NCBI GenBank assembly: GCA_015039365.1
Contig: WION01000087.1
Location: 62,001-126,000 of the forward strand
DNA length: 64,000 bases
Source: Amanita rubescens
Lineage: Eukaryota > Basidiomycota > Agaricomycetes > Agaricales > Amanitaceae
Direction of reading: 5' to 3'
This document shows positions 2,331 through 32,821 of this stretch, one piece after another. The notes below the pieces were generated by a model. It was not told the DNA's origin. It ran no database searches and worked only from the letters and a program-made list of their open reading frames with translations. Position numbers and translations under genes: made by a program. Every line of letters begins with the position of its first letter. The first letter of the stretch is position 1.

Positions 2331-2460
2331 TACGCCAGGTGGGAATTCTCAACTCTTATCGTTATCCTTATCGGAAGAAGTTGTTTTCGACCCCCCACAC
2401 GAGCATGTCGCAGCTGCAACTTGCAAACGCTAATCTTGTAGGGACTCATGAGTCTCACAG

Positions 2461-5400
2461 ATTTCTTCTCTAATACTCGAGCAGGCTATTGAGCGCTTTC
2501 GAATCTTGGTCATCGGTAACGCCAACGCCGGCAAGACAACCATTCTGAAGAAGGTGTGCCATGCCCAGGGTCGTGAACCGATTTGTTTCAATAGAGATGG
2601 TGAACCGGTGTGTCACCTGCTTTTCTGAATGTCGCCAAGGCTTAGTATTCATTCGCCCTTGTTAGATTGCTGCAGAGTTGAAACCGGATGCCTCGGTGTG
2701 TTTCGGATGTATCTGTATCCCGGGCCTTCTTTTATGACAAATCAATGCAATTTCGCAGCGCGGAGAACATGATATAGAAGACAGTTTTCAATATCCAACA
2801 GCTCACGGCTTCATTTTTCACGATTCCCGTGGGTTCGAGGCAGGTGCTACTGGCGAACTGGATAATGTTACAGATTTCATAAAGAAACGAGCTGAGAGAG
2901 AGGAATTGAAGGATCGGCTTCATGCAATTTGGTGCGCTAAGATCTGCAACATATTGTAATTTTCTGAATTTTCTCCTGCCGCTCAGGTATTGCATCCCGA
3001 CTAGCAATGATAGACCGATGACGGAAGCGGGGAAGAAATTATTTGAGATTGACACCGGAAACGGTTGGCAAACGTCTGCATCACCTACTAAACGCATTGC
3101 TTATTCTAATACAAGTTCCTGTCATTGCGATCTTCACGAAAATGGATGGTCTCGAAGACAGGGCGTTTAACCGGCTAGCAATGGATGGTATTTTCGACGA
3201 AGAGAAGGCCACGGCCGAGGCAAAAGCTACATTCGAACGCAACTATCTGGAGCCACTTGAAGCGGTAAAGCACAAGCCGTGCCATACCATAAAACTACGC
3301 GGTATGTTGCTCACATCGACGGTAACAGCGACAAGCTCGACCATTCTCCACACAGACATGGACAAGGAAGGCACTATTTGCGACGAGCTGATCCTGAGGA
3401 CATCACAGGCCCTCGACGGCGATGCTCTAAAGTTGTTCTGTCTCTCAATCCTTCGGAATGATATGGAATCTCGTATCAAAGATGTTATCAACAAGTGGGC
3501 CATTGCCTCTTCCTCCCAGATAACCAGTAACTGATACGATACTACAGGATAATTATACCAAAGGCAAAAGGTGAGGAAAACATCGACTATGTCTTCGATC
3601 GGTAACTATCGTTCTCCCTTAGAGGCTCGTGAATCGGTCTCGTTTTCGAATGAACAAGCAAAATCGTTGTTCTGCGACGTGATGTGTCGCTTTCCGCACA
3701 TGCTGGTACGCATGCACACTCGTTATATTTAATTATTCACTCCCGTGCTTACAAATGTCAACAATCCCGCCACAGCCCGTACGTAATAGTTATATCGCCT
3801 GCCCTTCCTCTGCTAATCATCCTTGGCAGAGTGTGAGCGTCCTTGCATCAGTCGATGACATCTGGAAGCTATTAATCACCCAATTACCTTGCATCACTCT
3901 CAGTTTGTAAGTACCTCATTGCCCTGATTGTCATTGCTTGTCCTATTCGTCATGATACTCAAACGCAACATGAACTTCAGGAAGTAGGTCTTAGGCTACC
4001 GTGACGTTCCTGGGGGTAAGGTCATCACTGATACCCTCGTTCGCTCCTCCCCTCCATAGAAGGTATGTAACTGGTTATTTGGGAGGGAACTACTTTATCA
4101 ACTTTTTTCATCTTCGCAGCTAGTGAGTTCTTCACTACGGTTGATACTCTGATGGTGCTTATGGAAATATTCCTTATCGGTTGTCCACAGATTGTGAGTG
4201 CTGTGGATGTTCAATTTGGCTGTACATTGTTGATAATGTTGATGGCAGCATGTGAGGTCTTGATCATTTTTTGAGTGGTGAATGTCTCATTCAATCTTAT
4301 TGGATATAGAATGTGAGTCTCTCTGACAGTTGTGTGCTCTAGTTCTTGGCTATAGTGATTAATTAATAATTACTTGGTATCTATAGATGGCAAGTTATTC
4401 ATGACACTAGTACTGCACTCACTGTGCCTGACCATATGATTCAACTAATCTTCAGGATGTGAGTATAAGCTACATCAATGACATAACCATCTGCACTGCC
4501 TAATGTTGTGCCCAACTTTTATTCAAACCATACAGGAAGTGGGTGTGCTTGTGTTGATACACCGGGGACATATAATCTTACACATCACCAGAATGTGAAC
4601 TTTATTTGGACCTTTGATGGCATACATCATCTACTTACAATCATTCCTGGATTGGTGTATATCAGGCTGTGAGTTGGAATGTTCCTCAACCCAATCACAG
4701 TGGTGTACCAATGGCCTCATCATGGCATTGAACAGGTTGATGTAAGTTTTGGCTTGGTGCTCTCTCACTGAGTTACAAATGCTGTATTTGAAGGCTGTAT
4801 GTACTATCCTACACCAACAATTTCAAACTTAACTAATAAATACTTTATCTGATTTGCAGGCGGTATATGTCATCTGCTCTTCATGACCACTTATTGATTG
4901 TTGCATTGGTCAATACTTGGCATTGCAGTGTGTAAGTTTGTTCCATCATCAGCATCACCAACTTCTGATATGTGGTGTAGGAGGTATGTGATTAGTTTGT
5001 CCTTTATTTTTGAATGACATTGGGGTGGATATCAGACTGTAAATATAATTGTGGGTTTACTTTTACCAGCAATTAGCAGATCATATTTGCATTTGCTTAT
5101 AACTCACATATCTACTTTGCACCACTGGTGTGCTCTTCACAGGATGTGAATTTGCAATTTTTCTGTTGTGACCAGCCCCTCACAGCTTACCTCTGCTCTT
5201 CACAGCAAGTGAGTTTCTGACTTTTCTGTTGTGATCAGCCCCTCACAGCTCACCTCTGCTCTTCACAGCAAGTGAGTTGCTGACTTTTCTGTTGTGATCA
5301 GCCCCTCACAGCTCACCTCTGCTCTTCACAGTTTGTGAGTTTCTGACTTTTCTGTTGTGATCAGCCCCTCACAGCTCACCTCTACTCTTCACAGATTGTG

Positions 5401-7484
5401 AGTTTCTGACTTTTCTGTTGTGATCAGCCCCTCATAGCTCACCTCTGCTCTTCACAGCGAGCGAGTTTCTGACTTTTCTGTTGTGATCAGCCCCTCACAG
5501 CTCATCTCTGCTCTTCACAGGATGTAAGTTTCTGACTTTTCTGTTGTGATCAGCCCCTCACAGCTCACCTCTGCTCTTCACAGCAAGTGAGTTTCTGAAT
5601 TTTATGTTGTGATCAGCCCCTCACAGCTCACCTCTGCTCTTCATAGCGAGTGAGTTTCTGACTTTTCTGTTGTGATCAGTTCCTCACAGCTCACCTCTGC
5701 TCTTCACAGCGAGTGAGTTTCTGACTTTTTTGTTGTGATCAGCCCCACAGCTCACCTCTACTCTTCACAGGATGTGAGTTTCTGACTTTTCTGTTGTGAT
5801 CAGCCCCTCACAGTTCATCTCTACTCTTCACAGGATGTGAGTTTCTCACTTTCCTGTTGTCTCTCACGGCTCACCTATGCTTTTCACAGATTGTGAGTTT
5901 CTGACTTTTCTGTTGTGATCAGCCCCTCACAACTCACCTCTGCTCTTCACAGTTTGTGAGTTTGTGACTTTCCTGTTGTGATCAGCCCCTCACAGCTCAC
6001 CTCTGCTCTTCACAGTTTGTGAGTTTCTGACTTTTCTGTTGTGATCAGCTCACAGCTCACCTTTGCTCATCACAGCTTGTGAGTTTCTGACTTTTCTGTT
6101 GTGATCAGTCCCTCACAGCTCACCTCTGCTCTTCACAGATTGTGAGTTTCTGACTTTTCTGTTGTGATCAGCCCCTCACAGCTCACCTCTACTCTTCACA
6201 GATTGTGAGTTTCTGACTTTTCTGTTGTGATCAGCCCCTCATATCTCACCTCTGCTCTTCACAGCGAGTGAGTTCCTGGCTAAGTTTTCTGTTGTGATCA
6301 GCCCCTCACAGATCACCTCTGCTCTTCACAGCAAGTGAGTTTCTGAATTTTATGTTGTGATCAGCCCCTCACAGCTCACCTCTGCTCTTCATAGCGAGTG
6401 AGTTTCTGACTTTTCCGTTGTGATCAGTTCCTCACAGCTAACCTCTGCCCTTCACAGGATGTGAGTTTCTGACTTTTATGTTGTGATCAGCCCCTCACAG
6501 CTCACCTCTGCTCTTCACAGCGAGTGAGTTTCTGACTTTTCTGTTGTGATCAGCCCCTCACAGCTCATCTCTGCTCTTCACAGGATGTGAGTTTCTCACT
6601 TTCCTGTTGTCCCTCACAGCTTACCTCTGCTCTTCACAGGATGTGAGTTTCTGACTTTTCTGTTGTGATCAGCCCTTCACATTTCATCTCTGCTCTTCAC
6701 AGGATGTGAGTTTCTGACTTTTCTGTTGTGATCAGTCCCTCATAGCTCACCTCACCTCTTCATAGTATGTGAGTTTCTGACTTTTCTGTTGTGATCAGCC
6801 CTTCACAGCTCACCTCAGCAAGTGAGTTTCTCACTTTTCTGTTGTGATCAGCTCCTCACAGTTCACCTCTGCCCTTCAACACAGGATGTGAGTCACTGCA
6901 CAAAATCAATATTTGATTGCTTTTTGATCCTTGCATCCTTCTTTTGAAATGCATCCAGAATGTATGTGCCTATCTTATGTGTTACTTCCACTCTTTCATG
7001 GGGCCATTTCATCTTCTACTCTCCAATATATGTCCAAACTGATTGCTTTGTGTGGTTTTATAGGACCATCAAAGTTTGGAGCAGTGCTTCGAGCTTATCT
7101 TGCCATTCATACCACTGCAGGTGTGGTACCTTTGTTACAATCTAGGCTAGTTGCCTTATCATCATTCAACTTCACTTAGGATTCTTATCAACTTCAAGCT
7201 ATGTGGATTGGCCTCAGTATGTTTTAACATTCTCTGCCATCATTGATGTCTCACTGATCTAGCACTTCATAGTGGCTGCAGCTGTTGCAGATCTCTGCTT
7301 ATTTGCCTCTCTCTCAATATCCCATGAGACCTTTCAGGAGACTTTTGACTTCTGTCTAAATGCAGCATCATATCTGAAACTCAAGTCTGCTGTAGAGGAA
7401 CAGTCTTCTACTATCATTTATGCCAATGTAGTCCTGGACATCCTGAAGGAGAATAGGGACAATTACAAGTTGTCACTGCAGTGA
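2461..7484 (+). CDS. P-loop GTPase with about 50 single-codon exons (microexon-array gene)
   Basis: The G domain is spread over exons 2461 (or 2485)-2607, 2759-2931, 2987-3063, 3116-3301, 3356-3494, 3548-3570 and 3623-3705. It shows G1 GNANAGKT, G3 HDSRGFE and G4 IFTKMD; reading frame is kept across every junction. The apparent stop at 3534 lies inside an intron (donor GTGGGC at 3495, acceptor ACTACAG ending 3547). After the exon ending in RFPHML at 3705 come 49 exons of exactly 3 nt and one of 6 nt (4736-4741), all in phase 0, from CCC at 3776 to AAT at 6959, each bounded by AG and GT (or GC). Normal exons follow: 7064-7120, 7180-7216 and 7273-7484, giving a helical tail of about 100 residues ending at TGA. 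The 5' exon with the start codon was not found. Function is unknown; the GTP-binding call is firm, and the coding status of the microexons is inferred from phase and the absence of stops. Confidence 0.75.
3706..5145 (+). other. heterogeneous half of microexon array 1 (introns diverged)
   Basis: Twenty-one consecutive microexons lie here: CCC 3776, AGT 3830, TTT 3904, GAA 3981, AAG 4060, CTA 4120, ATT 4191, CAT 4249, AAT 4310, ATG 4387, GAT 4456, GAA 4536, AAT 4592, GCT 4666, GTTGAT 4736, GCT 4794, GCG 4860, TGT 4929, GAG 4981, ACT 5036 and GAT 5143. The introns (about 50-105 nt) are unrelated in sequence to one another, yet each has a good donor and a pyrimidine-AG acceptor, and every exon is 3n. 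The intron after 4389 has a GC donor (GCAAGT). Confidence 0.75.
5146..6887 (+). repeat. homogenised tandem intron array 1, about 63-bp unit
   Basis: About 28 near-identical units follow one another. Each is a roughly 60-nt intron beginning GTGAGTTTCTGACTTTTCTG and ending CTCTGCTCTTCACAG, followed by one variable codon. Codons in order start at 5206, 5269, 5332, 5395, 5458, 5521, 5584, 5647, 5710, 5771, 5834, 5890, 5953, 6016, 6076, 6139, 6202, 6265, 6332, 6395, 6458, 6521, 6584, 6640, 6703, 6766, 6819 and 6885. They are drawn from GAT, CAA, CGA, TTT, ATT, CTT and TAT. Each unit has a CTGAC branch-like site and two further AGs (ATCAG, CTCACAG) upstream of the main acceptor. The intron after the CGA at 5458 starts GCGAGT. 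Confidence 0.9.
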
Positions 7485-7959: not shown

Positions 7960-8720
7960 CGTGCGAGAGACCAACACTTTTTTCGTCACTCATGTCCGTC
8001 TACGACAAGAATCGAAAATGAGAATCACGTCTAGCGTTCAAAAGAGGCAAAATGCACCTTGCTCATATGCCCGCGATCTTCTTCCTCGATACCAGGACTG
8101 TCTTCTTTCCCATTAAGAACATGAACCTGATCGCTCAACGCTCCATCACTTGGCGAAAGCGACAAATGGGGCGGACAATGCGTCCTCTCCTCCTCCTGCA
8201 CCACCAACTCAAGATCAACCCTCTCCTTATCCTTGTATCTCGGGCCACCTGTAAGGGGTAAAGGGAAGTGTAACTGACTCCGAAGAGCGGTGCTACCCAC
8301 TAGACACCCGTCTTATAGGAACTTCCCCGATTGCTTTTGTCAAGGGGTCAATGCACAACTCTTTGAAAGTCCTCATGGCTTTCTCCTTGCCGTCAACCCA
8401 AACCTGCTCTGTGTCTGAGTATATCATACTTTGCGAATATAACAATATGCGTGTCGCTTGTTAGGGCAGCTTGGATGACAGTTAATCATGAAACTCACCA
8501 CCGCGTCCACGCACCAGATTGACGATTTCCTCCATTCCTCTTTCTGCGATGCGATCGCCAGCGACAGGTATTGAGATACAAATCCTGAAAGTATGTTGTC
8601 TCGAATTGGAACATAATGGTCGGGTGCCCACTGAGCTACTCACCAGATGGCATGAAGTTCGCCCTTGAGCTCCATCATTTGCTCACATCCTTCGACCTCG
8701 CCAGGCTCGAGTCGGCAGCC
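7960..8720 (-). pseudogene. decayed P-loop GTPase fragment, copy 2 of the duplicated block
   Basis: Sequence from about 7960 to 8720 repeats 1408-2220, with small deletions. On the minus strand the most readable remnant is CEQMMELKGELHAIW followed by a GTGAGT donor at about 8700-8640. This is the same segment that precedes an intron in the live GTPases. The copy lacks a stretch present around 1870-1960 in copy 1, including most of the G4 region. It abuts the metallophosphatase relic on its right and the LAA1 fragment on its left. Confidence 0.65.
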
Positions 8721-10250: not shown

Positions 10251-11053
10251 CACAGTGTTCGCGTTAGATATTCTTTTTTATAGTATCACGTGACCCGTCG
10301 AAATCAGACCCATCTACGAGTTAAGGCTCTTGTTCTTTCTTCCCAATAATGCGGATGTCGAACACGGGTTAACGGCTGTTCACTCACATTTCCCGGATGA
10401 GTTCATTCCGTGTGGGAAGAACATGGCTTCTTCGCTAGATTAGTCTCCAGTGGCAATGCGGACACCAACAATGGTGCTGCCCTCAGGGAACAGATGACTC
10501 CTGCTATGCCTTGAAGATCGACCGAATGGAGGCAATGCGGACACCAACAATGGTGCTGCCCTCAGGGAACAGATGACTCCTGCTATGCCTTGAAGATCGA
10601 CCGAATGGAGGCTTGAAAGTGGTGAGTTGAGATATTCTCCCTTGGAACCGTGATTGCTCATTTGTTCGGCATCCAGTTGTTAATACTTTCTATCGTGCTC
10701 ATAGCAATGTTTGATCACCTCACTCTTTTCCGGGACTGTAGCTATTCATCATCATTCAAGGCGTAAATTAAATGTGCCGCTCAACGAACGAAAACTTAGC
10801 TTCAATGTATTCCTGGCCTAGGAATCAGCTAGGTATGCCGCACAAGGCATTCATAGCGACCTGCTGATCGCCAGGTGGGCATTGCCTTATCATCGTACCT
10901 AGGTACTCGTTCTCTCTTAACACGCTCTGGTCCTGTTCCGTCTCGAGTGATTCCCCTTTGAGTCCACAAAGGGTTTACACGTAATCATCATCAAAAAAAA
11001 TGTCCATGCAATTACAAAATGCAAACTTGAAGATGTACACAGCGCTACAGACA
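10251..11053. other. intergenic, with one short tandem duplication
   Basis: Apart from the 79-bp duplication at 10452-10609 nothing coding is recognised. The right end is the 3' flank of the LAA1 gene. Confidence 0.5.
10452..10609. repeat. perfect 79-bp tandem duplication
   Basis: The 79 bases 10452-10530, starting GGCAATGCGGACACC, are repeated without visible change at 10531-10609. No open frame or terminal inverted repeats are associated, so this is probably a recent slippage or unequal-exchange event. Confidence 0.9.
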
Positions 11054-23044: not shown

Positions 23045-26000
23045 ATGGCCGACCGACGTGAAGGCACTGCACGAACGATATTCAAGACGCTCCTAAAGCC
23101 CATTGATAAGTGGCGCAAATCAGCCAGCGCCTCGGCTAGCCCGTCGAGTTCAACTCGGGTTTCCATTTCCTATGCATCTGACGCTCACGATCCTGTCTCA
23201 AGAAGTGCAGGGCCGACGGGTTCAAGTAAGTATATTGGTCCCATCTTAGTTTTATCCGACTCAAACTCTTGCTAGGCGCCGATGCTACCTTGAATCAGGG
23301 TATGGATTTCTACCTCACAGATCTAGCGGACTCAGCCCACTATCCAGGTCCTACCACCCCCTTCCAGTCAGTAAAACATCTTTCATCAAGCATTCCGGAT
23401 CTGCGAGGTCCCGCTGTTCAAGGTGAGATTGCAATACGCCCGGTCGTCGCGTCTGAGAATTGACTTCGAGCACGGCCGTGAAATCCGACTCGTACTGAAG
23501 AACCAGCGTCGATTAATTCTCAAATGCCGGTCTCGGATTGGAAGGCGACTACAAAACAGGGTCTTGGAGTAGCTTCGCGGTTCGCCCAAACGCTCCTCAA
23601 GAAGCTGCCGGACTGTGTCAATACTAATCCAGTTAAGATGGCACTCTCCATTGTTAAGGCGGTCATCGAGATAAAAGAGGTGGGTCGTCATCCTTGTATC
23701 TCGACCACAGGTTGACTATTATCTCAGGCGGTCGGAGAAAACAAGGACGAGCTTGCACAACGTCTCGAAGACACAGCGAACAGACTCATGTCTGTGGAGG
23801 GGGCTTTAGCTATTGGTATTCCGAAGGCTGCCGAACAGAAGATGGAGAAACTCAAACAGTACGTCGTCCTCCCTGCGTCAAATGGTATACCACAATGAAC
23901 GCGTCGCCATCTAGGATCCTTCAGGAAGAAATGAAGAAGTTAGAAGACCTCACCCATAAGTCGCTGGCCATACGGACGCTAGACCATGAAGAATATCAGA
24001 AGATGATCGGCCAAATCTTTCAACGCGTAAATGGTGCTACGACATCCTTCCAGGTCCATACTCTTATATTCGTCTAAGCTTATGTATTTGCTCATTGTTT
24101 GTTCCCAGTTCGAAATGGCGAACAGCATCCAGGAAACGGCGAACATAATGCACGACGACATCAAGGCAAGTATCTCGGTTTCCTGGCTTGTGACCAACAC
24201 TGATTGATTGAACAGAAAGAGGCCCTAAAAAGCCTGCGTCCCTCCGAGAAGGCCGACCACAATACTATTCTCGAAGAGCAGGGCCTGAAGCGGGAAGTGT
24301 GCACGGACGGAACGCGTGTCAAGATATTGGAAGATATTATCAAATGGGCTAATGATTGCTCATCAGACAGCCCGTGTGTCTTCTGGCTGACTGGTCAAGC
24401 TGGCTCCGGCAAAACCACAATTGCGTATACCATAGCCAAACGATTCGAGAAGGATGGTGAAGCCAACGAGCTCACCGTCTTGGGCGGCAACTTTTTCTGC
24501 TCACGACAATACCAAGAAACACAAGCCCAAACCCGTATCATTCCCACCATCGCCTACCAGCTTGCTCGTAAATGCAAATCGTATGCAAACACTTTGCATG
24601 TTGCCGACAAATTCGACGCCGTCAATCACGACGTCTCCCGCCAGATAAAGAGTCTTCTTCTTGGACCTTGGCAACTGTCCGAAGCCACACGCCCCCTGAA
24701 CTACCACCCTACCTCGTTATCATCGATGCTCTCGACGAGATCAAGGACAACGGAGGGTCAGCATTTCTGCGCGACCTGCTCACAGCAATCAACAAAGACG
24801 ATATCAGAGGCTTAAAGTTTCTCGTGACGAGTCGATCGGATCCTAAAATTGTTACACTCTGCGAGTCCTTCGCGTCCGAGGCCGTTTGTCGTCTCCAAGA
24901 CGTGCCGATCGAAGAGGCAAAGTCAGACATCAAGATGTACTTGAACATCAAGCTGCCGAAGCTTGCTGGCAGTCCAGAGCTGGCCAAGGTTGGACAACAG
25001 GCGGGTGGTCTGTTCATCTACGCTGCGACGGTGGTGAGGTATTTGACCCGGTGTAACTCGATCTCCCCTAAAGAGCAGACCGAGATGCTTAACAATCTCC
25101 TTTCCAAATCGGCTTCCGCAAGTGCTACATTCTTAATTGACATATTATACCGCCAAATTCTGCACGACGCGTTTTCGGAGTTCGAAGGAAATATCTTGAC
25201 TCGCCGATTGCATTCCTTTATACCTTCCTATGTACGGCTGAACGCACATCACCCTCTACCGTTGCTGCGCTCATCGCAGGCAATGATAATGAAGCCGCAA
25301 AGGCCGTTTTGGATAATCTCCATTCTGTGCTATATACCCAGGACGATCGGGTTTTTTGGTACCATGCCTCGTTCCCCGACTTCATTTTTGATCCAGCCCG
25401 GTCAAACTTCTGCGTTGGTGAGAAGAACTTTCTGTTTTCGTGTAACGAACCAGCACACCACAATCTTCTTAGTGAATCGTGCTTCGGCGTCATGAAGTCC
25501 AGTTTGCGATTCAACATGGGTGATATAACTTCATCCTTCCCGTTCGACCGTGACAACGCCGCTGCGCTGTCTAAGCAGGTTGACCAGAACATCACTGCTG
25601 TTCTTAGGTACTCATCTCGCCACTGGACTTACCACTTGCCATTGCCCCAGCTCATCAATACCAATAATCTTCGTTGCTGCATTTCGGAGTTCCTCCAAAT
25701 TCGTGTCCTGTTCTGGATCGAGGGTATGAATTTGCTTGGATTATGCAATCAGTGTACCCCAATGCTTCAGCATGCACGTCAGTGGGTATTGAAGGTATGG
25801 ATTGCAAGGCTTGAGTTGTGCTGCAAGAACTAACAGTGTCGGTCAGTACGGGAACAGTTATTCGGAATTGGCAGGTGACCTTTGTGAAGCTGCCAATTTT
25901 GCTACCTATTTTGCTGGGAGCCCGGCTGCCGAATCGACACCGCATCTGTACATCTCGGCGTTGGCAACATGGTCGCGGGAAACTAGTCTCTCTCGGAAGT

Positions 26001-27496
26001 GGAAAAGCCAATTCACTCGCATCCCTGTCTTTACGCATACCAAAGGCAGTAGTATTGATTTGCCATTGATGACGATATCAGCTAGGGGAATAATCTTCGC
26101 TGTTGCATTTTCAGGGGACAGCACGCGGATTGTGTCTGGGTCGTCTGACAAGTCTGTGCAGGTGTGGGATGCGTCAACAGGTGTGGAGTTGAATAAGCTG
26201 AAGGGCCACACCGGGTGGGTCAATTCGGTCGCGTTCTCGAGCGATGGGACGCGGATTGTGTCTGGCTCGGATGTCAACTCTGTGCGGGTGTGGGATGCGT
26301 CGACAGGTGTGGAGCTGAAGGAGCTGAAGGGCCACACTGGGTCAGTCAATTCGGTCGCGTTTTCGAGCGATAGGACGCGGATTGTGTCTGGCTCGGATGA
26401 CAACTCTGTGCGGGTGTGGGATGCGTCGACAGGTGTGGAGTTGAAGGAGCTGAAGGGCCACACCGGGTCAGTCATTTCGGTCGCGTTTTTGACTGATGGG
26501 ACACGGATTGTGTCTGGCTCGTATGACAACTCTGTGCGGGTGTGGGATGCGTTGACAGGTGTGGAGCTGAAGGAGCTGAAGGGCTACATCGGGTCGGTCA
26601 GATCAATTGCGTTTTCGAGCGATGGGATGCGGATTGTGTCTGGCTTGTATGACAACTCTTTGTGGGTGTGGGATGCGTCGACAGGTGTGGAGCTGAAGGA
26701 GCTGAAGGGCCACACCGGGTTAGTCATTTCGGTCGCGTTTTCGAGCGATGGGACGCGGATTGTGTCTGGCTCGGATGACAAGTCTGTGCGGGTGTGGGAT
26801 GCGTCGACAGGTGTGGAGCTGAAGGAGCTGAAGGGCCACACCGAGGAAGTCAATTCGGTCGCACTTTCGAGCGATGGGGTATGGGTTGTGTCTGGCTCGT
26901 CTGACAATTCTGTGCGGGTGTGGGATGCGTCAATAGGTGTGGAGTTGAAGGAGCTGAAGGTCCAGACTGAGTGGGTCAATTCTGTCGCGTTTTCGAGTGA
27001 TGGGACGCGGATTGTGTCTGGCTTGTATGACAACTCTGTGCGGGTGTGGGATGCGTTGACAGGTGTGGAGCTGAAGGAGTTGAAGGGCCACACCGGGTGC
27101 GTCAATTCTGTCGCGTTTTCGAGCGATGGGACGCGGATTGTGTCTGGCTCATCTGACAACTCTGTGCGGGTGTGGGATGCGTCGACAGGTGTGGAGCTGA
27201 AGGGCCACACTGAGTGGGTCAATTCGGTTGCGTTTTCGAGCGATGGGACGCGGATTGTGAGCTCGGATGACAAGTCTGCAAGTGTAGGATGTGTTGATGA
27301 GTACTTTCCTTGGAATCTGACAAACACAAATTGGATTATTTCTTCTCAGGGGCAAAACTACCTCATGTGGGTGCCACAAGAAGTTGGATTGCTTTCACCT
27401 TTCAATATTCTCATCATTTCTCGTTCTGGATTTGCCACTGTTGACTTTTGTCAGGCCATGATAGGTCTTGGTTGGGTTCACTGTTATACACCATAG
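23045..27496 (+). pseudogene. NACHT-WD40 NLR-like gene with two frameshifts
   Basis: Exons: 23045-23225, 23276-23422, 23507-23679, 23728-23858, 23915-24053, 24109-24165, 24216-25794, 25847-27496. The N-terminal region is the helical domain typical of agaricomycete NACHT-WD40 proteins (ending DIIKWAND). The NACHT has Walker A GQAGSGKTT (about 24390) and Walker B LVIIDALDE (about 24715). The C-terminus carries 10 WD40 repeats and the usual tail NTNWIISSQGQNYLMWVP. Two lesions break exon 7: a C run at about 24690 is one base short (C5 where frame needs C6), and about 8 extra bases (TATACCTT) sit near 25215. With both corrected the exon is a whole number of codons. So this is either a recent pseudogene, or an assembly/allelic artefact. 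The intron after 24165 uses a GC donor. Confidence 0.75.
26071..27290 (+). repeat. near-identical WD40 tandem repeats, 126-bp unit
   Basis: Ten copies of a 42-residue WD40 repeat lie in tandem (core VAFSSDGTRIVSGS, then RVWDASTGVELKELKGH). Differences are concentrated in the same few positions: the residues after GHTG, the residues after SGS, and D/N-K/N before S-V. The ninth unit lacks three residues (KEL), and the tenth is degenerate after RIVS. Such homogenised repeats with focal variation are known from fungal NLR ligand-sensing domains. Confidence 0.9.
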
Positions 27497-28005: not shown

Positions 28006-31000
28006 TCACCCTGCCATAAATTGTCCATAAATAGTGCATGACAAAACAATGCACATCATACCATCAATGTGAGTCACCTGCCTATGGAGCAATGTGACAA
28101 AATCTTGATGGCCAGTGTGGATAAAGTCAGGAATGATGTAAGCCTTCAGCTTCTGAAAATAGCCTTTTTGCTTGTATTGATCCAAGGCTTCAGTGACTGA
28201 TACCAAAAATGGTTTATTGATCCAGAAGGATAGCTTTGCAATGATAATAATTGCTTGAAAGGTTAAGCATATATACTATAAATGAAAAGGGATGATTTAC
28301 AAAGTAAGACTTGGAAATCAGTAGGCTGGTTGCAGTGGTATCAGTTGTGTAGTACTACCCATAAAAAAGAAAAGAAAAAACCTTGACTGCAAAGTTCCTT
28401 TGCTTGTTCCCAAACATGGTAAAAAGTTCATGCTACATAGTACTATGAGATAGAGTAATAACTCCAATCTCCCAAGACCTACACACTAACACACAAACTA
28501 ATATAAAATCAATACCTTATGAACTGGCATCACTCACCTAGAAGTAAAGAAAGTCATATAAGTGGGATCATGATGTGGGAGTTTGTTCACTAAGATAAAA
28601 TCTTACAATCTATGATGATGATGATGATGTAAAAGCAAGTAAGATATGGACAAGATATGGCAACATGCTCACTTTCTGACATACATAGGATGTAATAATA
28701 TGTCATTCATGAATTGAGCTATGCTGAGGATGCAGTTCAGAAAATGTGCAATGTCACTCACAAGCTGTTTGTCAAAGGAAAAGATGTGAGACAGCCTTTC
28801 ATAAAATGTGCAATGTCACTCACAAGCTATTGGTCATAGGAAAAGATGTGATGAGATGCCTTTCCCAAACATGTGCAATGATGTCACTTACATCCTGTTG
28901 GTCATAGAAAAGTTGTGATGGGACTGTCTTTCACAACATATGCAATGTGGTGACTCACTCCCTGTTGGTTGTAGGAAAGATGTGAGCAGACTACCTCTCA
29001 CTTGAAAATGTGAAATGTCACTCACAAACTGTTGGTTACAGGAACAGATGTGATGAAACTGCCTTTCACAGCATGTGCAGTGTCACTCACAAACTGTGGA
29101 AAAGATGTGATGATACTGCCTTTCACAAAATGTGAATGTGCATTGTCACTCACAAACTGTAGGTCATAGAAAAAGATGAGACAGCCTTTCACAAAGTGTA
29201 CAACATCACTCACAAACTGATGATCACAGGAAAACATGTGTGAGACTATCTTTTACAAAATGTTGAATGTCACTCACAACCTGTTATTCATAGGAAAAGA
29301 CCATGAGACTTGCTATTACAAAATGTGCAATGTCACTCACTCGCTGTTGATCAAAGGAACAGTTGTGATGAGACTTCCTTTCACAAAATGTGCACCATCA
29401 CTCACAACCTGTTGGGCATAGGAAAAAATGTGATGAGACTGCCTTTCACAAAATGTGCAATGTAGTGCTCACTTGCTGTTGGTCATCAGAAAAGAGGCAA
29501 TGAGACTGCCTTTCACAAATGTGCAATGTGTCACACTCACTCCCTGTTGATCAAATGAATAGATCTGATGAGATTACCTTTCACAAATTTGCAATGTTAC
29601 TCACAAGCTGTTGGGAAAAGGTATGGGTGTGATGAGACTTCCTATCACAAAATGTGCAATGTAACTCACAAACTGTTGGTCATATGAAAATATGTGATGA
29701 TTGCCTTTCTGTCACTCACTCGCTGTTTGTCATAGAAAAGGATGTGATGAAACTACCTTTCACAAAATGTGTAATCTCACTCACTCGCTGTTGGTCATAA
29801 AAAAAGGAGTGATGGGGCTGCCTTCCACAAAATGTGCAATGTCACTCACTTCCTGTGGGTCATAGGAGAAGATGTGATGTGACTGCCTTTAACAAGATGC
29901 TCACTCGCTGTTGGCCATAGGAAGAGGTTGTCTTTTCTTTCACAAAATGTGCAATGTCACTCACTCCCTGTTGATCATAGGAAAAAATGTGATGAGACTG
30001 GCTTTTACAAAATGTGTAATGGCACTGACTTCCTGTTGATTATAGGAAAAGATATGATGAGAATGCCTTTCACAAAATGTGGAATGTCACTGACAAGCTG
30101 TTGGTCATAGGAAAAATGTGATGAGACTGCATTTCACAAAATGTGCAATGTCACTCACTCCCTGTTGGTCATAGGAAAAGATGTGATGAGACTTTGCCTG
30201 TGGAATGTCATGGTCACTCACTTCCTGCTCATCCATCATAGGAAAAGGTGTGATGGAACTGAATTTCACAAAATGTGGAATGTCACTCACTCCCTGTTGG
30301 TCATAGGAAAAGATGTAATGAGACTGCCTTCCACAAAAATCTTCAATGTTGCTCACATCCTGTCAGTCATAGGGAAAAAGTACTTAGCAAAGCATTTCAG
30401 AAATATTTGCAATGCTACTCACATACTGTTGGTCATAGGAAAAGGTTATATTTGAACCACTAAGCTAGCAATGACATCCTGCTAACCTCCTATGTTTATA
30501 GGAAAAGTTGTGATTTCATTGCTTTTACAAAATTTTGCAATATCACACACAATCTGTAAAACAAGAGGTGTCAAAATTATATTGTATCAAAGGGCCAGCA
30601 TGACTCACTTCCTTTTGGAACAGAATTAGCATCATGAATGGAGAGAAAAAATAAAAACAATGGAACTGACTCTCTTTTTTGATAGCATTTCATGTGATGA
30701 ATTTACATCTCACAAAAGGATCACATACATCCTGTTTGTTTTGCAATAGCTTGTGAAGAGGCTTTGGAAAGGAGACATATTTACTGTCTGTTGTTTTGGA
30801 ACAAGATGTAATGTTTATAAGCAAAAAGAAAGGAAATGTCACTTACTTCCTGTTATTAAGTAATTTGTTCATACTCTTTTTCAGATAATAGTATGTCATT
30901 AACTTTCTATTGTTCATTGAGTTATGTCTGATAAGCTGCACAAACATTAATGTTACTTACTTTCTTTAAGCAGGTTAGATGTGGTGTAAAGCAGTTTTGT

Positions 31001-32821
31001 CACTACTCACTCCCTGCCAATGAGAGACTGGAATGACAAGGCTGCTTACAATGATAGATCAACTCACTTGCTATTGGTCATATGATGCACCATTGGATAA
31101 TCTACCACAAATCAAAATGGATTCATGTTACTCACTTCCTGCAGATTATGAGTCAAGACTGTTCATCACAAAAGAGGGCATTGCACACAAACTATTGTCA
31201 TGAGACAATATGTATATCAGATCTGTGCTAGTTCGATGTCACTTACCCACTGATATCAATAATATCAGATCTTGCCACCAAAAGAGTAGGGTGACAACTA
31301 GCCTGTGTGTCACTCAGTTGTTCATTGGACATCTGAAGTGATTAATTTGTTTTCATATGAGGGCAAAGTTGGTTTGTTACTTACCCCCTGATGAACTTTT
31401 GCAAGTATTCATCATTTCACATGAAGGCCACTTACCTCCCTGTCCACCTACATACTTCCATTTAACTTTTCATAAACTGATGTGCAGTTTGCATACCCAG
31501 AAATGTGGAAATTTTGAAAAAACTATGAGAATGACATCATCCCATGTCCAATGTTTATGTTTCAGAACATGTCTGAACAATGTTAATGTAAGTAAGTCAC
31601 ATTCTGAATGTGACCCTCACTGAAGTGCAGATTTAACACAAAGTTCAAGATTATTCATCTGTGTTGAAACAAACAAATGATGCATGCTGTCATCATCTAT
31701 TGTATCAGCAGTTTGTTGAGTTAATTCAGCACAATTCTTCTCTGGTAAATCCATGTCTATGAAACAACATTACTCCCTCTTTTCAGGAAGAAATTTTGAT
31801 CAATCTCACCTTCCAATCTCACATATGTTTTGGGAGGATATTTGACATCCAGAACTTTAGGAAGATAAACTTGCTGAAACCTGATTTCAGCAATTTCCCT
31901 GGCCCTCTCCCAATTATCTTCATTTTTTCCATCAGTCAAGTTGACAAATTCACTAGCTATTTGACCATCAAACTTAGTGAATATAACCACCAAAGGAGCT
32001 GTTAAGGAAATATTCAGTAGTCAGTACACTGTCGATTACTGCTTAGCAGATTTTATAACAATTTGGCCAATGGAAGGGGGGTAACAATGTCACCCCTTTT
32101 CCCTTGGCTCATGGGCAAACCTCTCCAAAACCAACAAGATGAGTATAAATTCATTAGCAATTACCTCTTCCTGTCCCTTTATCAAAAAATTCAAGTTCTG
32201 CAGGTAGAATGGGACGTGGGCTATCCATGGGTATGCAGTACCTACAGGGAGCTTGGTCAACCAATCATGTAAATGGATAAATGATAAATCAAGGTACCAA
32301 ATTGCATGCAACTGATTTTTCAGCTCAGTTTCTGCAGACCTCTTCTCAATGAAATTCCAAGCAACCTCCAACTCCTCAGTAGAACCAGATTCAAACCCCT
32401 GAGAGTCATGGAAGATAAAGTTACTCCCAGGGTATGTAATCTGATGTTCAATATCATGTAGGCCTCTCTGTTATCAATGTATATGAGTGGGCACATCCAT
32501 ACATTATGATTAAGTGCACCTCAATTGATGGGGTCAAATGAGTTGCAGATGCTGCCAGTTCTTGGCCTGCAGGAAACTCAATATACAGAAGAAGTGCAAT
32601 ATTCAACCTGACTTACCACCCTTGTCATATATCATGGGTTTTGTTCCCTTTGCTACACCACAAACCTTCTCAAGGATAGTTGTCTTGCCTGCATTAGCCC
32701 TCCCTATGACAAGGATACGAAAATGTGGGCATAGGTATTGTTCCCTGAGCATTTTAACATTTGTCTCATCTGTACCTGATATGTACCAGTCAGATAATGG
32801 AGATGCCAAGACATCAATCAT
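28006..32821 (-). CDS. P-loop GTPase with about 45 microexons (second microexon-array gene)
   Basis: The G-domain exons are 32821-32617, 32463-32298, 32241-32165, 31998-31810, 31756-31621 and 31572-31497, all joining in frame. The protein starts MIDVLASPLSDWY and has G1 GRANAGKT, G3 HDSQGFE and G4 IFTKFD, closely parallel to the plus-strand gene, including the FSKFPHFW segment that ends the last normal exon before the array. Then come a 12-nt exon (31447-31436) and about 44 exons of 3 nt, in order from GGG (31387-31385) to TTT (28497-28495). A likely terminal coding region is 28206-28085 (acceptor GTATCAG; segment QKLKAYIIPDFIHTGH); the join to it and the stop at 28006 are not settled. Function is unknown. 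Confidence 0.7.
28495..31447 (-). repeat. microexon array 2; homogenised tandem introns of about 62-nt between about 28.76 and 30.30 kb
   Basis: On the minus strand the units run: donor GTGAGTGACATTGCACATTT, then TGTGAAAGGCAG, then acceptor CCTATGACCAACAG and one codon. Codon positions (plus coordinates, gene order) include 31387, 31249, 31191, 31138, 31070, 31013, 30963, 30906, 30849, 30787, 30731, 30611, 30553, 30489, 30425, 30359, 30293, 30224, 30161, 30097, 30032, 29967, 29907, 29852, 29787, 29722, 29672, 29607, 29543, 29475, 29408, 29343, 29280, 29216, 29156, 29093, 29028, 28961, 28894, 28826, 28764, 28675 and 28609. Codons are GGA, GAA, CGA, CTT, TTT, GTT, CAA, GAT, AAA and a few others, never a stop. 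Introns at both ends are diverged. Confidence 0.88.

Follow-up and report, generated by a model that had tools for sequence, protein, structure and literature searches.

Chains of single-codon exons in a GTPase gene family of the mushroom Amanita rubescens

In a 64-kb stretch of the Amanita rubescens genome (contig WION01000087.1, positions 62001-126000; G000:C773:62001-126000 in our numbering of the 75.7-Mb assembly with 786 contigs), hereafter the window, a P-loop GTPase gene on the plus strand carries a chain of 50 tiny exons between its GTPase (G) domain and its C-terminal domain. Such a chain of single-codon exons is a trait of the large GTPase family to which the gene belongs. Very probably, the linker between the two domains is written as 50 phase-0 exons, likely spliced successively, in arrays that would grow by duplication and codon change and that may serve recognition.

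The exon chain and its predicted translation

We defined a chain unit as AG, an exon and then a GT or GC donor, and the chain finder ignored stop codons. Fifty such units were recovered within 3706-7063 (first to last exon, 3776-6961), and every AG, NNN, GT/GC repeat of the original prediction, including its one 6-nucleotide (nt) exon, was found again. Forty-nine of the exons are 3 nt long and one is 6 nt (GTTGAT at 4736-4741). The donor is GC behind 4389 and behind 5460 and GT everywhere else. The introns between the chain exons are 49-104 nt long (median 60), and many of these lengths are not multiples of three, so that a constant phase is not automatic. Every chain exon keeps phase 0 relative to the upstream exon that closes at 3705, and the reading frame stays open through three ordinary 3' exons to a stop, in agreement with what had been claimed. 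The predicted gene model has 62 exons and 441 amino acids, uninterrupted from the ATG at 2405 to the stop at 7484, with GT/GC..AG at all junctions, and in its predicted product a linker of 51 residues connects the GTPase domain with the C-terminal domain. The upstream exons (2405..3705) agree with the NCBI protein P0001 as far as FPHML.

P-loop GTPases of the TRAFAC type carry the motifs GxxxxGKT (G1), DxxG (G3) and TKxD (G4). The window protein has GNANAGKT, DSRG and TKMD at these places, and these columns are mostly invariant in the relatives; the earlier reading of a P-loop GTPase gene was right. The longest chance chain was 4 units in 20 first-order Markov sequences of 64 kb and 3 units in 200 second-order Markov sequences of 4 kb, 100 with the composition of the window and 100 with that of 3706-5100. 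Only two chains were found in the 64-kb window, that of the window gene (plus strand) and that of a second gene (minus strand). The exon chain of the window gene is confirmed as real.

A search of the genome with the G domain gave at least 164 matches. Chains of 30-69 units were found at 15 of 17 further family loci (8 of 9 and 7 of 8 in two batches), which were drawn from the list of G-domain matches and are not 17 independent blind draws: the chain start of C437 and the absence of a chain in the short flank of C439 had been seen beforehand, and C276 and C56 (L063 and L068) carry near-identical chains. The chains of L068 and L070 were reported in two pieces each, and the opposite strand of the eight loci of the second batch held no chain. 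Moreover, close paralogues on C133, C408, C777, C353 and C397 have chains of 44-60 units, and C133, C777 and C408 each hold a copy that is identical across 3445 intron bases and all codons.

Two large protein searches, with the best 120 of about 1050 matches considered in each, gave intron-free jgi sequences, which were assigned to related mushrooms by similarity. P0002, a frame of 449 amino acids on an 1800-nt jgi contig, covers 100% of the predicted window protein at 59% identity in the protein search. Its linker with flanks reads FPHML-PSFDKLINDMDKNAVNAMRES...HEN-RYLQQCLE, that of the window gene FPHML-PSFEKLIHNMDENAVDAACET...QDN-DHQSLEQCFE, and its first 21 linker residues agree with the window exons at 13 of 21 places in the true register and at 0-2 of 21 when shifted by 1-3 bases. 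P0005, P0006 and P0009 share 11, 12 and 13 of the first 21 linker residues with the window gene. For the minus-strand gene, P0121 (WFEKGKKESDREIEYDG) matches the genomic WFEQGKKETDREIEYDG at 15 of 17 residues, gapless over 17 consecutive single-codon exons. P0133 and P0140 each match a genomic single-codon stretch at 12 of 17 (best of five loci each, as for P0121), and P0164, P0165 and P0169 match their best of five loci at only 8, 7 and 6 of 17. The jgi contigs would most simply be spliced RNA, because their frames also run through the positions of ordinary G-domain introns. The linker is present in relatives' sequences that have no introns, which makes it likely that the tiny exons are spliced in order, the codon exons being joined into the mRNA one after another.

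A further coding signal stands independent of transcripts, the chain finder being blind to stops. Of the 650 triplets in 14 chain stretches only 4 are stop codons, against 33.9 expected, and none of 5000 shuffles of the codon columns was as low; in this test C777b and C777c are possibly one gene, units within one array are not independent, and the near-copies C353, C397, C777a and C408b and the family loci fetched afterwards were left out. Two of the four stops lie in C316 (none when 6-nt exons are allowed), one in C124 and one in C31. In the same 14 stretches, the window chain included, the third codon position is A or T in 91% and NCN codons are rare (8%). The usual base before a donor is G; in the chain triplets it is usually A or T, and the donor is GTGAGT in 416 of the 650 units.

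Codon diversity, growth of the arrays and alternatives

In young arrays the introns are near-identical and the codons differ almost to saturation. Diversity was compared among units with a 60-nt intron within 12 changes of one reference, a selection that lowers intron diversity. The difference per site was 0.566 for the codon and 0.0012 for the intron in C408 (ratio 459; 54 of 78 units, 3 intron types), 0.617 and 0.0050 in C133 (ratio 124; 33 of 55 units, 5 intron types), 0.610 and 0.0244 in C777b (ratio 25; 22 of 43 units), and 0.625 and 0.069 in the window array (ratio 9; 21 of 49 units). When the units were chosen by 20 bases downstream instead, the picture was unchanged for these arrays. 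In the younger part of the window array, whose unit is mostly a 60-nt intron plus a codon and whose 63-nt tandem repeat is confined to 5131-6878, the three codon columns reach 1.84, 1.49 and 0.97 bits, and none of the 40 flanking columns exceeds 0.89. In the young arrays the codon of a unit shows no link to its intron variant, and paralogues sharing an array intron carry quite different linkers.

Adjacent units with the same codon are in excess over shuffles in C133 (10 vs 3.5) and C408 (11 vs 5.5), which is a trace of single-unit duplication; the excess was small or absent in the remaining 10 arrays tested at the adjacent lag. Moreover, the arrays of the family grade from near-identical to diverged introns. 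Judging from these two observations, the diverged first 20 units of the window array may be old copies, and the earlier argument that the constant exon length cannot stem from tandem copying is not established.

We infer that the arrays expand by tandem duplication of the 63-nt unit of intron plus codon, and that fast codon change after duplication would give each paralogue its own disordered linker. Each short intron with its strong donor may be recognised alone, that is, by intron definition. Given the footprints of splicing complexes, two of them do not fit a 3-nt exon at once, so the introns would be removed one at a time. As every unit consists of one or two whole codons in phase 0, the loss, gain or skipping of a unit alters the length of the linker and not its frame, and skipping of codons in the RNA would delete whole residues without a frameshift. 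Most likely the linker would provide a GTPase of the immunity or nonself-recognition type with a variable surface for recognition; this role is suggested by the variability, the size of the family, the IRG-like fold and the adjoining NACHT/WD-like gene, none of which is a test of it. A bolder proposal, which we find rather doubtful, is a repertoire engine in which a unit of intron plus codon copies itself, the codon alone is diversified by aimed mutation or by selection, and splicing assembles the recognition peptide residue by residue and could reshuffle it by leaving units out, all this in a very large number of immunity-type GTPases; mushrooms would then possess combinatorial receptors independent of NLR (NOD-like receptor) proteins.

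Several observations weigh against the successive splicing of the whole chain and the fast change of its codons. The presence of the linker in the mature product is indicated by sequences of relatives, and the evidence on the window gene and the other genome copies is genomic. The original prediction named a contrary outcome, namely removal of the whole stretch 3706-7063 as one piece or its retention with no triplets in the mRNA; this is contradicted for the relatives, whose intron-free sequences contain the linker. Among the matches listed, 30 of 40 jgi proteins extend as far as the landmark that precedes the linker. Nine of the 30 continue to a C-terminal domain; in the other 21 the tail past the landmark is 95 residues or shorter, which may reflect faulty splicing, a retained intron or the end of the contig. 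P0121, too, ends short of the C-terminal domain, the whole window-type linker is covered by P0002 only among the matches listed, and P0002 was the only protein recovered when its own linker and C-terminus served as query. Two of the 17 further loci (L065 and L066) are without a chain, and the array on C124 has an in-frame TGA. The C408 array (L012, C408:16500-26400, minus strand) has eight exons of 2 or 4 nt, which break the frame, with the introns unchanged at 60 nt. When the window gene is compared with its paralogues, the first codons are no better kept than the introns (0.87-0.89 of aligned bases for codons, 0.86 for introns), and each of the 5 differing first codons alters the encoded residue. 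The window locus and its near-identical copies show 1-3 changes in 150 codon bases and 17-24 in about 3030 intron bases.

No coding frame is open for the C408 array with its 2- and 4-nt exons, several of which resemble two common codons merged (GAAT, GTTA, CTGA); they are likely a consensus error, a blur of differing copies, or else indels restricted to the exons. Conservation of the first codons is not decisive as proof of coding, codons and introns being equally similar. Among pairs of the WF group, 0 of 15 had a codon identity above the gapped intron identity, a comparison that cannot decide because unrelated introns already score 0.70-0.75 by the same measure. Codons were not clearly changing faster than introns between the near-identical copies, and fast codon change is thus not seen in progress.

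The alternative that survives best accepts the exons and holds that all units are always included, giving one fixed linker per gene, with diversity between paralogues and not between splice forms. We regard it as nearly as plausible as its opposite, as P0121 follows 17 genomic units without a gap and the linker of P0002 (59 residues in our delimitation) is about as long as that of the C133 paralogue (58), whereas the comparable microexons of Tuber nank genes, treated below, are reported to be alternatively spliced in passages of the papers that cite them.

Invasion by an introner, in which copies of a single mobile intron split an older coding linker at almost every codon, seems unlikely to us. 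It would agree with the few intron types and very different codons of the 54 selected C408 units, in which variant and codon are unlinked, but it leaves the 3-nt spacing unexplained and does not account for the repeated adjacent codons of two arrays. Outside the context AGNNN, the window-type array intron matched 4 times exactly and 19 times at up to 2 mismatches, in a search that misses copies with more than 2 changes in 23 fixed bases. For the window-type intron a dispersed introner was rejected on this ground, the 4 exact matches and 19 of the 19 filtered ones all lying within the same arrays. Annotated Botryobasidium relatives have no long linker (P0042), which weighs little because an annotator could overlook tiny exons.

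It is very improbable that a single large intron or a minisatellite in decay occupies 3706-7063 and that its triplets never enter the mRNA. The NCBI protein P0001 (sister contig) does end soon after FPHML, in residues encoded by 4860-4886, as if all earlier triplets were skipped, and codon conservation between paralogue groups is no higher than that of introns; on the other hand, the linker stands in register in the intron-free sequences of relatives, the triplets are depleted of stop codons, and the exon length stays at 3 nt between introns of 49-104 nt. An assembly or consensus artefact of a tandem repeat is hardly credible, since the blended look of the C408 2- and 4-nt exons is outweighed by the diverged first 20 units and the minus-strand gene, which are not simple repeats, by the identical copies on C133, C777 and C408, and by the open frames of most chains.

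The preferred reading of successively spliced codon exons also bears on annotation. P0017 ends FPHMLPS-VSVLA, the window intron after the codon for S is gtgagcgtccttgca, and the end reads as an intron retained at a unit boundary. Incomplete splicing may be common, because many frames end in or near the linker, some of them in intron-like text. P0001 and P0004 are NCBI Amanita rubescens proteins of this family. Among the 190 records listed, 84 non-jgi records have a rough FPH-type landmark and 63 of the 84 end within 40 residues past it, by a rule that, in some records of Botryobasidium, Serendipita and Laccaria, picked up look-alike strings within the G domain as well. Annotated Agaricomycete proteins often end a few residues after FPHxW/FPHML, frequently with V-S or V-R, as if running into an intron. 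The GTPase family is probably widely mis-annotated owing to the tiny-exon arrays, which probably account for its shortening in public annotation.

Protein domains and other features of the window

Pfam GTPase families scored below the gathering score for the window protein (Arf, 15.9 of 22.3; MMR_HSR1, 14.0 of 21.9), as did MMR_HSR1 for P0164 (19.3 of 21.9). NACHT and ankyrin families were absent from a Pfam scan of the window protein, P0002, P0164, P0121 and P0042 at E up to 1. In the predicted structure of P0164 the flanking domains are confident and the linker has a predicted local distance difference test (pLDDT) score below 50; the linker is probably disordered. The C-terminal domain is helical. 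The best fold neighbours include immunity GTPases of the IRG family (e.g. Irga6 and Irgb10) at about 10-16% identity, with septins and EngB within 1 Z, and the fold search leaves the kinship among IRG, septin and EngB undecided.

The features of the two genes are collected in Table 1. The residues before WFE are TNEQLSETK in P0121 and ANKQLSEAQ in P0133, the counterpart of the probable ordinary exon MSNEQLSDTQ of the second gene.

Table 1. Features of the two GTPase genes, in window positions.
Feature	Position	Strand	Basis and remarks
Nine upstream GTPase exons, MSQLQLANAN...FPHML	2405-2437, 2485-2607, 2666-2695, 2759-2931, 2987-3063, 3116-3301, 3356-3494, 3548-3570, 3623-3705	+	gene model
Older array part, 20 exons PSFEKLIHNMDENA-VD-AACET	3706..5142	+	one exon of 6 nt (4736-4741); introns mutually diverged
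Younger array part, 28 single-codon exons, DQQFIRDQRRDDIFFLIIRQRDRDDDYQ	5143..6821	+	63-nt tandem repeat
Last two single-codon exons, 6885-6887 GAT and 6959-6961 AAT, and final 102-nt intron	6822..7063	+	chain reading, gene model
Three ordinary 3' exons, C-terminal domain	7064-7120, 7180-7216, 7273-7484 (stop 7484)	+	gene model; aligns with P0002 C-terminus
Second gene, GTPase domain exons, ending FPHFW at 31497	31497..32753 (5' limit approximate)	-	G-domain match
Second gene, probably ordinary 30-nt exon MSNEQLSDTQ	31303..31332	-	by eye; donor and exons up to FPHFW not settled
Second array, 44 consecutive single-codon exons, WFEQGKKETDREIEYDGEGLEGRERRFLGQVRVFFFFGDLLKIF	28495..31249	-	chain finder; P0121 matches 15 of 17 first residues

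By eye, open frames at 24204-27496 (plus strand), adjoining the minus-strand GTPase gene, resemble a NACHT protein with near-identical WD40 repeats, and this looks like a fungal NLR of the highly-conserved-repeat type. The segment 1601-1881 recurs about 6.5 kb further on at 8142-8413 with 90-93% identity, and the window gene thus lies between direct repeats. The window also holds an exact tandem duplication of 79 nt (10452-10612) and a tandem repeat of 27 nt in 3.7 copies (191-290).

Implications and comparison with known systems

If the preferred reading is true, the family would represent an extreme limit of splicing, with dozens of 3-nt exons in a row throughout the family, each to be recognised among introns of about 60 nt. 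It would also be a clean natural system in which to examine intron definition, the sequence in which introns leave the transcript and the lower limit of exon size. The near-saturated codon differences among near-identical introns raise the question of how this diversity arises.

The claim that no gene family of such design had been described does not hold: the NACHT-ANK 'nank' family of Tuber melanosporum is reported to have 3-bp microexons, tens of them, that are subject to alternative splicing, according to papers that cite Iotti et al. 2012 (PMC4986451, PMC10197012, PMC3689799). This is a precedent for a fungal gene family with arrays of codon-sized exons. For a GTPase design of this kind, no description was found among the titles and abstract beginnings listed, a search that left subscription literature mostly outside. 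What is seemingly new is the protein family, the phylum, the near-exclusive use of 3-nt exons over a whole inter-domain segment, and the pattern of identical introns with variable codons.

Other known systems share single traits with the Amanita arrays. The micro-exon genes (MEG) of Schistosoma mansoni likewise make variable proteins from many short exons (3-81 bp), but these proteins are secreted and the introns reach 5 kb (PMC10526429), whereas the Amanita exons are nearly all 3 nt, lie between introns of 49-104 nt and belong to a GTPase gene. The highly conserved repeats of fungal NLR proteins (Podospora HNWD and others) are near-identical repeats with a few strongly variable codons, subject to concerted evolution and diversifying selection (PMC4986451). 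There the repeat is a protein repeat; in Amanita the repeat is an intron, and only the intervening codon is predicted to be expressed. Introners or introner-like elements are near-identical spliceosomal introns in many copies per genome, dispersed across many genes (PMC9860276, PMC4457414), whereas the window-type intron of Amanita was found only in the tandem arrays of the GTPase family.

The closest likeness is to Tuber nank, likewise an expanded fungal family, whose genes carry tens of exons the size of a codon. Nank is an ascomycete NLR with NACHT and ankyrin repeats, and the window family is a basidiomycete GTPase without either; alternative splicing is reported for nank, and in the Amanita arrays it may occur. 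The citing authors tie the nank microexons to diversification of the sensor region (PMC4986451, PMC10197012, PMC3689799). Taken together with nank, arrays of codon-sized exons would have arisen in two fungal phyla, in two nucleotide-binding families that are not related to each other; this suggests that they serve a common purpose, probably variable recognition.

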